A stretch of DNA of 64,000 bases. It comes from Halobaculum sp. MBLA0147. GTDB taxonomy: Archaea > Halobacteriota > Halobacteria > Halobacteriales > Haloferacaceae. Below the pieces are notes generated by a model. That model saw only the letters and a list, made by a program, of their open reading frames with translations, searched no databases and was not told where the DNA came from. Where the stretch lies: contig NZ_JBGKAD010000001.1 of assembly GCF_041361345.1 (NCBI RefSeq), positions 1,612,001 through 1,676,000 on the forward strand. Direction: 5' to 3'. Position 1 is the stretch's first letter. Each line of letters starts with the position of its first letter. The position numbers and the translations under genes are program-made. This document shows positions 16,278 to 19,824 of this stretch, in pieces.

Positions 16278-17519
16278 ATGGAGATTCGGTTCCTGGGCGG
16301 GGCACGCGAGGTCGGGCGGAGTGCCCTCCTGGTCGACGACACGCTCCTCCTCGACTACGGAATGAAGGCGGACACGCCGCCCTCGTACCCCGTCGCCAGC
16401 GCCCGGCAGGTAGACCCAGACGCGGTGGTCGTCTCACACGGTCACCTCGACCACGTCGGTGCCGTTCCGGCGCTGCTCTCGGGGACCGACCGGCCGCCGA
16501 TCCACTGGACGCCGCCGACACGGCAGCTCACGCGCCGACTCGCACGCGACACGCTGAAACTCCACGGCAACAGTCCGCAGTGTCCGTTCGGCGAGGAGTC
16601 CGTCCGCCGACTCGGCGAGGTGTCCGTCGAACACGGCTACCGCGAGTCGTTCACCGCGGCGGGGTACGAGGTGACGTTCTTCGACGCCGGCCACATCCCC
16701 GGGAGCGCACACGTCCTCGTCGACGACGGCGACACCCGACTGCTGTACACCGGCGACTTCCACACGGACGACCAGCGACTCGTCGCCGGGACGACGGCAC
16801 GCCCGGACGCCGACGTGGTGGTGTGCGAGAGCACCTACGCCGGCGTCTCGCACGACCCCCGGGAACACGTCGAGGAGCGGTTCCTCGACCGCGTGCAGAC
16901 GACGATCTGGGAGGGCGGGACGGTGATCGTCCCGGCGTTCGCCATCGGGCGGACACAGGAGATGTTGCTCGTCTGTGCGAGCGCAGACGTGCCGTGTTAC
17001 GTCGACGGGATGGGCGTGGAGGTGACGGCGATGCTCCGGCGACACCCGGAGTACGTCCGGGACCCGGACGCACTCGACCGGGCAGCGGGGCACGCACGCG
17101 AGGTGACCGGCCGCGACGGGCAGCGGCGACGGATCGCCGACCAACCCGTCGCGGTCGTCACCACCAGCGGGATGCTCTCGGGCGGGCCGGCGATGACGTA
17201 CGTGCCGGCGGTCCGCGCGAACCCGACGAACCAGATCGCACTCACGGGCTACCAGGTCGCCGGGACACCCGGTCGGGAACTGTTGGAGACCGGGAGTGCG
17301 GAGATCGACGGCCGGATGCTCCGGGTCAGCGCCCGCGTCGATCAGTTCGACTTCTCGGCACACGCCGACGAGGCCGGGATCAGGTCGTTCCTCGACGCCT
17401 ACCGCGACGCGACCGTCCTCGTCAACCACGGCGACGACTGTGTCGCGTTCGCCGACACGCTCCGCGAGGACGGCTACACCGCCTCGGCCCCGGAGTTGGG
17501 CGAGACGGTGACCGTGTAG
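16278..17519 (+). CDS. Beta-CASP metallo-beta-lactamase RNA nuclease-like protein
   Basis: A 413-residue protein with the full set of MBL motifs: HGHLDH (HxHxDH, about residue 55), AGHIPGSAH, TGDFHTDD, and the beta-CASP motifs CESTYAG, PAFAIGRTQE and FSAHADEAG near the C-terminus. This is the CPSF/RNase J-type family of archaeal endo- and 5'-3' exoribonucleases involved in mRNA 3' processing and decay. It lacks the N-terminal KH domains of aCPSF1, so it is the shorter aCPSF2-like type. Substrate polarity cannot be read from sequence. Confidence 0.88.
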   Translation: MEIRFLGGAREVGRSALLVDDTLLLDYGMKADTPPSYPVASARQVDPDAVVVSHGHLDHVGAVPALLSGTDRPPIHWTPPTRQLTRRLARDTLKLHGNSPQCPFGEESVRRLGEVSVEHGYRESFTAAGYEVTFFDAGHIPGSAHVLVDDGDTRLLYTGDFHTDDQRLVAGTTARPDADVVVCESTYAGVSHDPREHVEERFLDRVQTTIWEGGTVIVPAFAIGRTQEMLLVCASADVPCYVDGMGVEVTAMLRRHPEYVRDPDALDRAAGHAREVTGRDGQRRRIADQPVAVVTTSGMLSGGPAMTYVPAVRANPTNQIALTGYQVAGTPGRELLETGSAEIDGRMLRVSARVDQFDFSAHADEAGIRSFLDAYRDATVLVNHGDDCVAFADTLREDGYTASAPELGETVTV

Positions 17520-17559: not shown

Positions 17560-17568
17560 GCTTATACC
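17560..17568 (+). promoter_or_regulatory. TATA box of the HEPN-like gene
   Basis: GCTTATACC ends 26 bases before ATG 17594, so the message is probably leaderless. This decides the start against the long upstream open frame. Confidence 0.65.
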
Positions 17569-17593: not shown

Positions 17594-18217
17594 ATGTCCG
17601 ACGTGGGGTTCGCTGCGAGGAAACTCGTCGAAGTCGAGACGGTCCGCACCCAGCTCACGGAGAGACGGATCGAGGTGGTCGGGAAGGCACGTGCCTGTGC
17701 CGAGTCGTACGACACGCCGTACGCCGGGAAGCGAGAGATCTGGCGAGATCTGAACGACTTCGAGTGGTCGCTGTACCAGTTTACCAGTTTGCTCCACATG
17801 CTGGGGGAAGTTCTCGCGACGATTCGAGACCAGTGTGGCGTACGATTGTCAGAGGCACGTCCGATCAGACACGCCGTCCCGCGTCTGATCGGACTGCGGC
17901 ACTGTATCCACCACAACGGACTCGTTGGAGCACAGGTGGCGAGTGCCGAAGGGTTGCCACACCCGGTGGTCGGGATTCCACTCGAGAGCGTCGAGAGACA
18001 CGGGTCGTGGGGCGGGGGGAACCCGAGCTTCGAGACGTTCTTTCACTCTGCGGACGACCTGCTCGTCGTTCGACCGATCGTCGAGAACAGCGAGACGCGG
18101 TACCTGGCTCCAGTCGAAGAGACCGTGGCCGGTGTCGAAGAGCGGTACGGTGAGGACGAACTCCAGCGTGTAGCGTCGAACGTCGAGATCTACGACCGAT
18201 CGGAGTCGGACGGCTGA
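17594..18217 (+). CDS. All-helical HEPN-like protein
   Basis: 207 residues, largely helical. Around residue 100 it has RLIGLRHCIHHNG, where R-H-x3-H matches the R(N/D/H)x3H catalytic pattern of HEPN ribonuclease toxins. The helix-rich N-terminus (TVRTQLTERRIEVVGKARA, DLNDFEWSLYQFTSLLHML) suits that fold. HEPN proteins are commonly RNA-cleaving toxins or defence effectors; that function is inferred here from one motif. Its 3' end overlaps by 28 bases a convergent 52-residue gene, and a DUF433 gene follows, so the cluster could be a toxin-antitoxin locus. Confidence 0.6.
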   Translation: MSDVGFAARKLVEVETVRTQLTERRIEVVGKARACAESYDTPYAGKREIWRDLNDFEWSLYQFTSLLHMLGEVLATIRDQCGVRLSEARPIRHAVPRLIGLRHCIHHNGLVGAQVASAEGLPHPVVGIPLESVERHGSWGGGNPSFETFFHSADDLLVVRPIVENSETRYLAPVEETVAGVEERYGEDELQRVASNVEIYDRSESDG

Positions 18218-18348
18218 TCGAACGCGTCGTCGTCCGCGACTCGGTCGTCGTAGAACGTCAACTGGATCCGTCCGACGTCGTCGGCGCTCACCGACTCCGG
18301 GAGTTCGTGATCACGAGCCGTGGACGCCTTGGTGCGAGACGACTCCAT
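18190..18348 (-). CDS. 52-residue acidic protein convergent with the HEPN-like gene
   Basis: The ORF runs from ATG 18348 to TAG 18190, with product starting MESSRTKASTARDHELPESV and ending DQPSDSDRS. The middle (DDVGRIQLTFYDDRVADDDA) looks like a short folded beta segment. A strong TATA box (GATTTATACTGT on the minus strand, 18372-18383) lies 25 bases upstream of the ATG, which is the main support. Its 3' end overlaps the HEPN-like gene by 28 bases in antisense. It could be an antitoxin, but no family is recognised. Confidence 0.6.
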   Translation of the reverse strand: MESSRTKASTARDHELPESVSADDVGRIQLTFYDDRVADDDAFDQPSDSDRS

Positions 18349-18371
18349 CGTGTGTCGGGTTGCCGTCGGTA

Positions 18372-18383
18372 CAGTATAAATCT
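18372..18383 (-). promoter_or_regulatory. TATA box of the 52-residue gene
   Basis: GATTTATACTGT on the minus strand ends 24 bases before the ATG at 18348. It is one of the clearest TATA boxes in the window. Confidence 0.65.
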
Positions 18384-18400
18384 GTTCGGGGTTGTGAGAT

Positions 18401-18931
18401 CTACGTCTCGTCGGCCGACTCTGCGCCGATCCGTCGCCACTCGGCCTCCTCGATCCGCGCCACGTCCTGGAGCACGTCCGGGTGGTCCTCGGCGTACTCC
18501 AGCGCCGACTCGATCTCGGCGCGCGTCAGCTCGGAGTAGATCCCGTCGCGGAGTTGTGCGACCGTCCGGCCGCGTTCGTGTTTCGCGTAGACGTAGTGGA
18601 CCGCGACGCGGTGGCCGTCGATCCGGGGTTTCCCGTCCAAGACACCGTCCGTACAGACGATCCGCACGGTCTCGCCGTCTCGGAGGTACGTCTCCTCCGG
18701 GTACTCGAACGACGGCTCCAGGGGGTCTCCCACGCCACCGTCTGTCGCGACCCCGTCGTTCACCGCCGCGCCGTCACCGGTCGCCGCCGTCTCGTCACTG
18801 GCTGCAGTCGCCTCGCCGGGCGCCGCCGCCTCGTCACTGGCTGCAGTCGCCTCGCCGGGCGCCGACTCGTCGGTGGACGCCGCGTCCGCTACCACCGTGT
18901 CGTCGCCGGGGCTGTCGGGGGTGTTCGTCAC
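18401..18931 (-). CDS. DUF433 domain protein
   Basis: 176 residues. The C-terminal half carries DUF433: RIVCTDGVLDGKPRIDGHRV then HYVYAKHERGRTVAQL and YSELTRAEIESALEYAEDHP. DUF433 is a helix-turn-helix domain of VapB-like antitoxins and regulators. The N-terminal roughly 75 residues are Ala/Glu/Asp low complexity with a 13-residue repeat (39-bp DNA repeat). GTG 18931 has an AAAATCATTA element about 27 bases upstream. It is divergent from PCNA and upstream of the 52-residue gene on the same strand. Confidence 0.8.
   Translation of the reverse strand: MTNTPDSPGDDTVVADAASTDESAPGEATAASDEAAAPGEATAASDETAATGDGAAVNDGVATDGGVGDPLEPSFEYPEETYLRDGETVRIVCTDGVLDGKPRIDGHRVAVHYVYAKHERGRTVAQLRDGIYSELTRAEIESALEYAEDHPDVLQDVARIEEAEWRRIGAESADET
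18791..18863. repeat. 39-bp direct repeat in the DUF433 gene
   Basis: Two near-identical copies start at 18791 and 18830 and contain CTCGTCACTGGCTGCAGTCG. They encode the in-frame ATAASDE-type repeat of the disordered N-terminus. Confidence 0.85.
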
Positions 18932-19080: not shown

Positions 19081-19824
19081 ATGTTCACGGCGATCGTGAG
19101 CGCGTCGACCCTCCGGGACGCGCTCGACTCGGTGAGCGTGTTGGTCGACGAGTGCAAGATCCGGTTGAACGAGGACGAACTCGTGATCCGGGCCGTCGAC
19201 CCGGCCAACGTCGGGATGGTGGATCTCTCGCTGGAGGCGGCCGCCTTCGAGTCGTACGAGGCGGACGGCGGCGTCATCGGCGTCAACCTCAGTCGCTTGG
19301 AGGACATCGCCTCGATGGCCGACAGCGGCGATCTGATCAACATGGAGTTGGACGAGGAGACCCGCAAGCTCCACATCCAGATCGACGGGCTGTCGTACAC
19401 GCTGGCGCTGATCGACCCGGACTCGATCCGCGAGGAGCCGGACATCCCGGACCTGGACCTGCCGGCGGAGATCGTCCCGGAGGGTGCCCAGATCGACCGT
19501 GGGATCACCGCCGCCGACATGGTGAGCGACTACATCCGACTGCGGGTCGACGAGACGGAGGAGACGTTCGTCATCGAGGCAGAGGGTGACACCGACGACG
19601 TCGACTTCGTGCTCGGTCGCGAGGACCTGATCGAGCTGCAGGCCGGCGCGGCGGACTCGCTGTTCTCGCTGGACTACCTCAAGGACATGAACAAGGCGAT
19701 CCCGAACGACGCGGAGGTCCGCGTCGAACTCGGGGACGACTTCCCGGTGAAGATGCACTACGACTTCGCCGAGGGGCTCGGACACGTCACGTTCATGCTC
19801 GCGCCGCGGATTCAGAGCGACTGA
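19081..19824 (+). CDS. pcn: DNA polymerase sliding clamp PCNA
   Basis: 247 residues, the normal PCNA length. N-terminal domain: [20 protein letters not shown]; interdomain region: [21 protein letters not shown]-terminal domain: [18 protein letters not shown] and the end APRIQSD. The trimeric ring tethers DNA polymerases, FEN1, ligase and RFC through PIP boxes. A TATA-like GGTATTTT about 30 bases upstream supports ATG 19081. A divergent second clamp is encoded at 58735-59622. Confidence 0.97.

Follow-up and report, generated by a model that had tools for sequence, protein, structure and literature searches.

Among the systems closest to the locus described here, the HepT-MntA (HEPN-MNT, type VII) pairs combine a presumed RNase toxin carrying a HEPN-type R-x4-H motif with a dedicated gene for a neutralising partner (PMC3710099, PMC7641770, PMC11586414), and in such MNT-HEPN dyads the antitoxin gene is described as the 5' member (PMC3710099). 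Other HEPN toxins have non-MNT partners, as in RnlA-RnlB (RNase LS), where a HEPN RNase and its own antitoxin are encoded in an operon (PMC3710099). A convergent arrangement is described for type I loci such as C. difficile CD2517.1-RCd8, where the genes of a 50-53-aa membrane-peptide toxin and an RNA antitoxin overlap tail-to-tail (PMC6563280).

In the window, the 64,000-nt stretch of Halobaculum sp. MBLA0147 DNA analysed here, a gene for a 207-aa HEPN-like protein converges with a gene for a 52-aa protein, hereafter the mini gene. As in HepT-MntA, a protein with an R-x4-H motif has a dedicated partner gene, but this partner is an acidic protein of about 50 aa (48-55 aa among homologues), far too small for the nucleotidyltransferase of type VII systems; the genes converge instead of forming an MNT-first operon, and profile comparison (hhalign) revealed no significant similarity of the HEPN-like family to haloarchaeal HepT, though the RHCIHH of the motif lines up with RNIL(A)H. 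No sequence relation to RnlA-RnlB was detected, and the operon of that system has no counterpart here. The convergent type I loci share the gene order, but the present module comprises two conserved proteins with a toxin candidate of about 200 aa, and its partner does not qualify as an RNA antitoxin because purifying selection acts on the protein that the mini gene encodes; the gene may also have a role as RNA. With type II systems the module shares an adjacent, dedicated pair with a small protein partner (9/9 intact HEPN-like genes); the single operon with the antitoxin usually first was found in none, all nine intact loci being convergent. The module is best read as a protein-antitoxin counterpart of the convergent type I loci, and we put at about 0.6 the probability that it is a mobile, two-gene convergent module in which a HEPN-like RNase toxin is paired with an antitoxin of a new acidic family. 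Titles and abstract openings in the literature revealed no HEPN toxin-antitoxin pair in convergent order, which does not establish its absence from print.

The convergent pair and its promoters

The features of the locus, in window positions, are:

16278-17519, + strand: beta-CASP metallo-hydrolase gene, neighbour of the HEPN-like gene
17561-17566, + strand: TATA box CTTATA, some 30 nt ahead of the HEPN-like start codon
17594-18217, + strand: HEPN-like protein gene, predicted RNase toxin, 207 aa, R102-x4-H107
17897-17914, + strand: RHCIHH codons (R102 to H107) of the R-x4-H motif, computed from the ATG at 17594
18190-18217, both strands: 28-nt antisense overlap of the HEPN-like and mini-gene 3' ends
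18190-18348, - strand: convergent mini gene, predicted antitoxin, 52 aa, charge about -15 per 100 aa
18375-18380, - strand: TATA box TTTATA, some 30 nt ahead of the mini-gene start codon
18401-18931, - strand: DUF433 gene (PF04255, E 1.6e-11), a neighbour outside the module
19081-19824, + strand: PCNA gene, a neighbour that adjoins the module in two Halorussus genomes too

This layout bears out the original prediction of a 207-residue frame with an R-H-x3-H motif (R102-H-C-I-H-H107, equivalent to R-x4-H), a 52-residue convergent frame overlapping it in antisense by 28 nt, a TATA box before the latter and a DUF433 gene just upstream. The hexamer YTTATA occurs six times on both strands of the window against 0.5 expected, and two of these six sites lie about 30 nt upstream of the HEPN-like and mini-gene ATGs. 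This distance is typical of leaderless haloarchaeal transcripts, and such transcripts are expected for both genes. A sigma-70 promoter and terminator scan, whose model excludes archaea, found nothing. In two Halorussus loci of the window's clade (L013 and L014; clade A below), the sequence CGACTATT lies near the start codon of each module gene (L013 8240-8370 and 9139-9160; L014 likewise), with GACTATT in its place in one of the four promoters, that of the L014 HEPN-like gene. Its presence at both promoters of these two related loci would be compatible with a shared operator, which is possible.

A HEPN-like family of patchy distribution

The 207-aa protein has eight intact homologues (25-46% identity) in seven other haloarchaeal genomes, with Halorussus litoreus, Halocatena pleomorpha and Halorussus ruber among the named hosts of the gene. 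With the window protein they form two clades: clade A holds the window and L012-L015, whose identity to the window protein is 43-46%, and clade B holds L016-L018 and L036, at 25-27%. Among 60 genomes of relatives, three of them congeners, the gene was present in the window's own genome only, and a search of 391 class genomes gave eight strongly matching places (E < 1e-16) in seven genomes (G000 and six others). A profile built from eight HEPN-like proteins (A2) matched 6/390 class genomes and 2/294 genomes of a phylum sample; in the G195 family it matched 4/28 genomes, of which G421 was new, as was G419 with a frameshifted copy. Three of the ten genomes from the class sequence search (G017, G220 and G388; E 0.0025-0.0056) were treated as chance and dropped because they do not appear in the profile search at E<=0.001. 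A single-sequence search of genome contigs returned nothing useful.

Neither the 207-aa nor the 52-aa protein had a match in Pfam, NCBIfam or PADLOC, the NCBIfam value for the 52-aa protein being a chance-level 0.13. PHROGs gave only weak single-member matches (e.g. phrog_3095, 0.0077), as did PaaA_PaaC (0.063), and sequence searches of solved structures gave best E values of 0.31 and 0.2.

HEPN RNases are characterised by R-x4-6-H in which the arginine is followed by a polar N, D or H, and the motif is placed where helix 3 of the four-helix domain ends or the loop to helix 4 begins (PMC3710099). The present family carries the motif: R102 and H107 are invariant in 9/9 aligned homologues, and the residue after the arginine is H (5) or N (4). 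The predicted model of the H. litoreus homologue (mean pLDDT 67) has four long helices (3-42, 48-83, 91-108 and 162-188), with R104 within helix 3 and H109 just past it (pLDDT about 60 at the motif). Its insert follows helix 3 and is not between helices 2 and 3. HEPN domains also feature a conserved acidic residue in helix 2. In the window protein, modelled at pLDDT 53, D55 aligns with E in the other eight sequences and lies within model helix 46-81, but an E-x3-[KR] form is not evident.

Matches to known HEPN proteins did not reach significance. No HEPN Pfam family matched any of the nine members at E<=5, and a search for PF18739 in 10 genomes was uninformative, its controls being equally silent. 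Foldseek searches with the predicted models gave no match under E 0.06, generic helical bundles filling the lists, and the alignment to 3jrt, a HEPN structure in the list of the HEPN review (PMC3710099), had a Z of 9.0 (rmsd 3.9, 130 aligned) that lies within the background of unrelated bundles. The HEPN fold put forward in the original prediction is consistent with the predicted model, in which the motif ends the third of four long helices, but is not proven: the models are weak, and neither family nor structure searches gave a significant match. The description of the protein as all-helical was incorrect, residues ~110-160 forming a poorly predicted, partly beta insert. On balance, we regard membership of the family in HEPN as probable.

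The mini gene as constant partner

A gene of 48-55 aa lies tail-to-tail at the 3' end of 9/9 intact HEPN-like genes, and, counting the window, each of the 10 HEPN-like loci examined has a mini homologue in this convergent position. The mini proteins align over a common core. As sole query in a pairwise search over 175 kb of DNA from the neighbourhoods, the window mini protein recovered four of the nine other loci, matching the convergent ORFs of L012, L013, L014 and L015 (E 8e-10, 1e-10, 9e-7 and 1e-8). The best other matches in the control set were at E 0.002 (window mini) and 6e-4 (L013 mini), in a set that was imperfect as it included the module loci L071, L094 and L096 and loci pre-selected for weak mini similarity. 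The L016 mini matches those of L014 (E 9e-6), L017, L018, L036 and L037 as well as an orphan in L068, and since it bridges to clade A via L014, the two mini clades are one family. Substitutions between L036 and L037 comprise 11 synonymous and 0 nonsynonymous changes, and dN/dS was 0.12 for L017/L018, 0.10 for L018/L068 and about 0.10-0.26 across pairs with finite estimates. By these codon comparisons, the mini gene is a real protein-coding gene under purifying selection. None of the 11 mini proteins had a Pfam match at E<=5 or a recognised DNA-binding domain.

The mini profile A1 hit eight places in 7/390 class genomes at E < 1e-18, seven beside HEPN-like genes and one orphan. Only this threshold was counted, as a loose E<=0.5 passed 187/390 genomes; inspection of the locus of the best dropped match (L069 in G228, 4.6e-4) revealed no mini gene there. 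In the 390 class genomes, the HEPN-like gene was present in six and the mini gene in seven, all six being among the seven (Fisher p 1.5e-12, an optimistic value because the mini profile was built from HEPN-like neighbours). Distances within the two families were correlated (r 0.92, 0/5000 permutations), which we do not take as proof, since the common descent of the two clades accounts for it.

Exceptions to the pairing ran in one direction. In Halorussus ruber (L037), a frameshift directly behind the R-x4-H motif breaks the HEPN-like gene, and the mini gene is intact. In G383, the orphan mini gene (L068 5927-6082, - strand) is convergent to an unrelated 434-aa ORF, and the surrounding 14 kb contain no HEPN-like match better than E 0.015. 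Thus, 2/11 mini genes lack an intact HEPN-like gene and 0/9 intact HEPN-like genes lack a mini gene, the pattern expected of a toxin and its antitoxin. The orphan (contig G383:C9) shares 89% identity with the L017 and L018 mini proteins across 46 aa, and the 434-aa ORF abutting it has no Pfam match; perhaps the orphan is an anti-addiction antitoxin or has had its toxin swapped.

The two proteins also differ in charge. Per 100 residues, net charge ranges from -6.8 to +1.5 for the HEPN-like proteins and from -15 to -26.5 for the mini proteins, with neighbour medians of -6 to -11; the HEPN-like protein is less acidic than its neighbour median in 9/9 cases and the mini protein more acidic in 11/11. 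This contrast between a near-neutral and a strongly acidic protein suits an acidic masking antitoxin. We infer that the 207-aa protein is a HEPN-like RNase toxin that would act through R102 and H107, and that the 52-aa protein would be its antitoxin, probably binding the much less acidic toxin so that its conserved strand-like core (I-x-L-x-F-Y-D-E) and MPDP tail may cover the active site. Each gene would be read from a TATA promoter of its own, apparently without a leader, and with these separate promoters facing each other, toxin and antitoxin would be made independently. The converging transcripts would overlap at their 3' ends, which may add mutual RNA-level damping.

Genomic surroundings and competing readings

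GC3 of the HEPN-like gene is below the neighbour median in 9/9 loci and below every scored neighbour gene in 8/9, giving the gene a foreign look. In Halorussus G185 and G195, the module fills the gap between ftsJ and PCNA, and in Halorussus G388 and G198, this gap measures only 142 and 152 bp and the module is absent. As the same intergenic site is filled or empty among Halorussus genomes, the pair, promoters included, can be gained or lost by itself. Clade-A modules adjoin, or lie within two genes of, PCNA (window 19081-19824, L013 9330-10073, L014 9854-10597), the RFC small-subunit gene (L012 9485-11758) or MutS-MutL (L015 4080-8382), a closeness to clamp and mismatch-repair genes that is a post hoc pattern. 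Clade-B modules lie beside gatA and a permease gene, beside an integrase-like gene or on a 165-kb contig.

Further observations concern these neighbours. The RFC small-subunit gene by the L012 module carries an intein (Intein_splicing, E 3e-15). At least one further, divergent PCNA-like match (25-54% identity) is present in 7/30 haloarchaeal genomes searched (G012, G185, G292, G051, G001, G009 and G003). Between gatA and the module of G421 lies a PIN-like and AbrB/VapB-like pair (L036 7722-8404), of which only the small partner is listed in Halorussus ruber (L037 9719-9958), both named by eye.

The surroundings also bear on other functions of the pair. Abortive-infection defence, in which the mini protein holds the HEPN-like RNase inactive until a virus disturbing the host, for example its replication machinery, releases it and addiction is secondary, would fit the patchy distribution, the foreign GC3 and the sites beside PCNA, RFC and MutS-MutL genes, and HEPN proteins are described as common in such systems (PMC3710099). 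However, PADLOC gave no match for the window proteins, no defence-island neighbours were seen by eye in the gene lists of the module loci, and searches of viral contigs, plasmids and phages found no relatives of the module, and we consider this account unlikely, if the strongest of the alternatives.

The same sites could mean a housekeeping role, which would count against a toxin-antitoxin module: the pair might be non-toxic and regulatory, tied to the DNA clamp and mismatch repair, with the mini protein inhibiting, or serving as adaptor for, a helical protein that binds RNA or nucleotides. All clade-A modules lie near PCNA, RFC small-subunit or MutL genes, but those of clade B do not follow this pattern, the proximity was noticed after the fact, and the lack of the module in most relatives argues against a housekeeping function, leaving this proposal improbable.

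The junctions between the two genes vary. The window's 28-nt overlap accompanies seven extra C-terminal residues of the HEPN-like protein relative to the shared end of its relatives; the overlap is 4 nt in L012-L015, with a shared CTAA or CTAG stop at the L012, L013 and L015 junctions, and gaps of 3 nt (L016, L036) or 17 nt (L017, L018) occur elsewhere. Coding-overlap antisense was accordingly rejected as a conserved feature: the 28-nt overlap is not conserved, so antisense within the coding region is not the common denominator, the mini protein is. A type I-like arrangement, in which the mini-gene transcript is an antisense RNA on the toxin mRNA and the peptide is incidental, recalls the convergent C. 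difficile loci in its tail-to-tail order and overlapping 3' ends (PMC6563280), but is very improbable given the purifying selection on the mini protein and a coding overlap of just 4 nt in four loci and none in 4/9 intact loci.

The DUF433 gene proved to be a bystander. An orthologue (76-77% identical) adjoins PCNA in the congeners G001 and G003, where no module remnant is detectable, marking DUF433 as an older PCNA neighbour, and none was seen at the other nine module loci in ORF-scored gene lists inspected by eye. DUF433, which we take to be COG2442, provides the antitoxins of some VapBC systems, and the window likewise has a DUF433 gene adjoining the pair; in contrast to those systems, no PIN toxin gene was seen beside it, its flanks being the mini gene and PCNA, and its conserved link is to PCNA, not to the module. 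A three-gene locus of HEPN-like toxin, DUF433 as VapB-like antitoxin and regulatory mini gene, suggested by DUF433 lying on the same strand as the mini gene, 52 nt upstream of it, and by the PIN-COG2442 pairs described as VapBC-type systems in Synechocystis (PMC3834315), can be set aside, as DUF433 stays with PCNA in the two congeners that lack the module and was not seen at the nine module loci other than the window. Of the toxin-antitoxin-like locus in the original prediction, the HEPN-like/mini pair behaves as such in comparative genomics and is conserved, but DUF433 has no part in it as module member or second antitoxin. In the window, the DUF433 protein is extended at its N-terminus by an acidic stretch in which the segment APGEATAASDE is repeated (18730-18931), and the proteins called in G001 and G003 begin just before the PSF-YPEETYL segment.

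The reading as a HEPN-like RNase toxin with a very small acidic protein antitoxin has a bolder form, in which the module would be a new toxin-antitoxin class that joins type I gene order to a type II-style protein antitoxin, built from HEPN-like RNase and ~50-aa acidic families outside Pfam with separate leaderless promoters, one clade of which, beside PCNA, RFC and MutL, may sense damage there; we hold this extension to be doubtful. If the toxin-antitoxin reading is true, a HEPN-like RNase family and a very small acidic antitoxin would join the little-explored toxin-antitoxin repertoire of haloarchaea, and a protein antitoxin would be maintainable in a convergent, separately promoted order, as opposed to the antitoxin-first operons of type II systems. 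A 52-residue gene that is easily missed in annotation would then be the constant partner that explains the larger gene.
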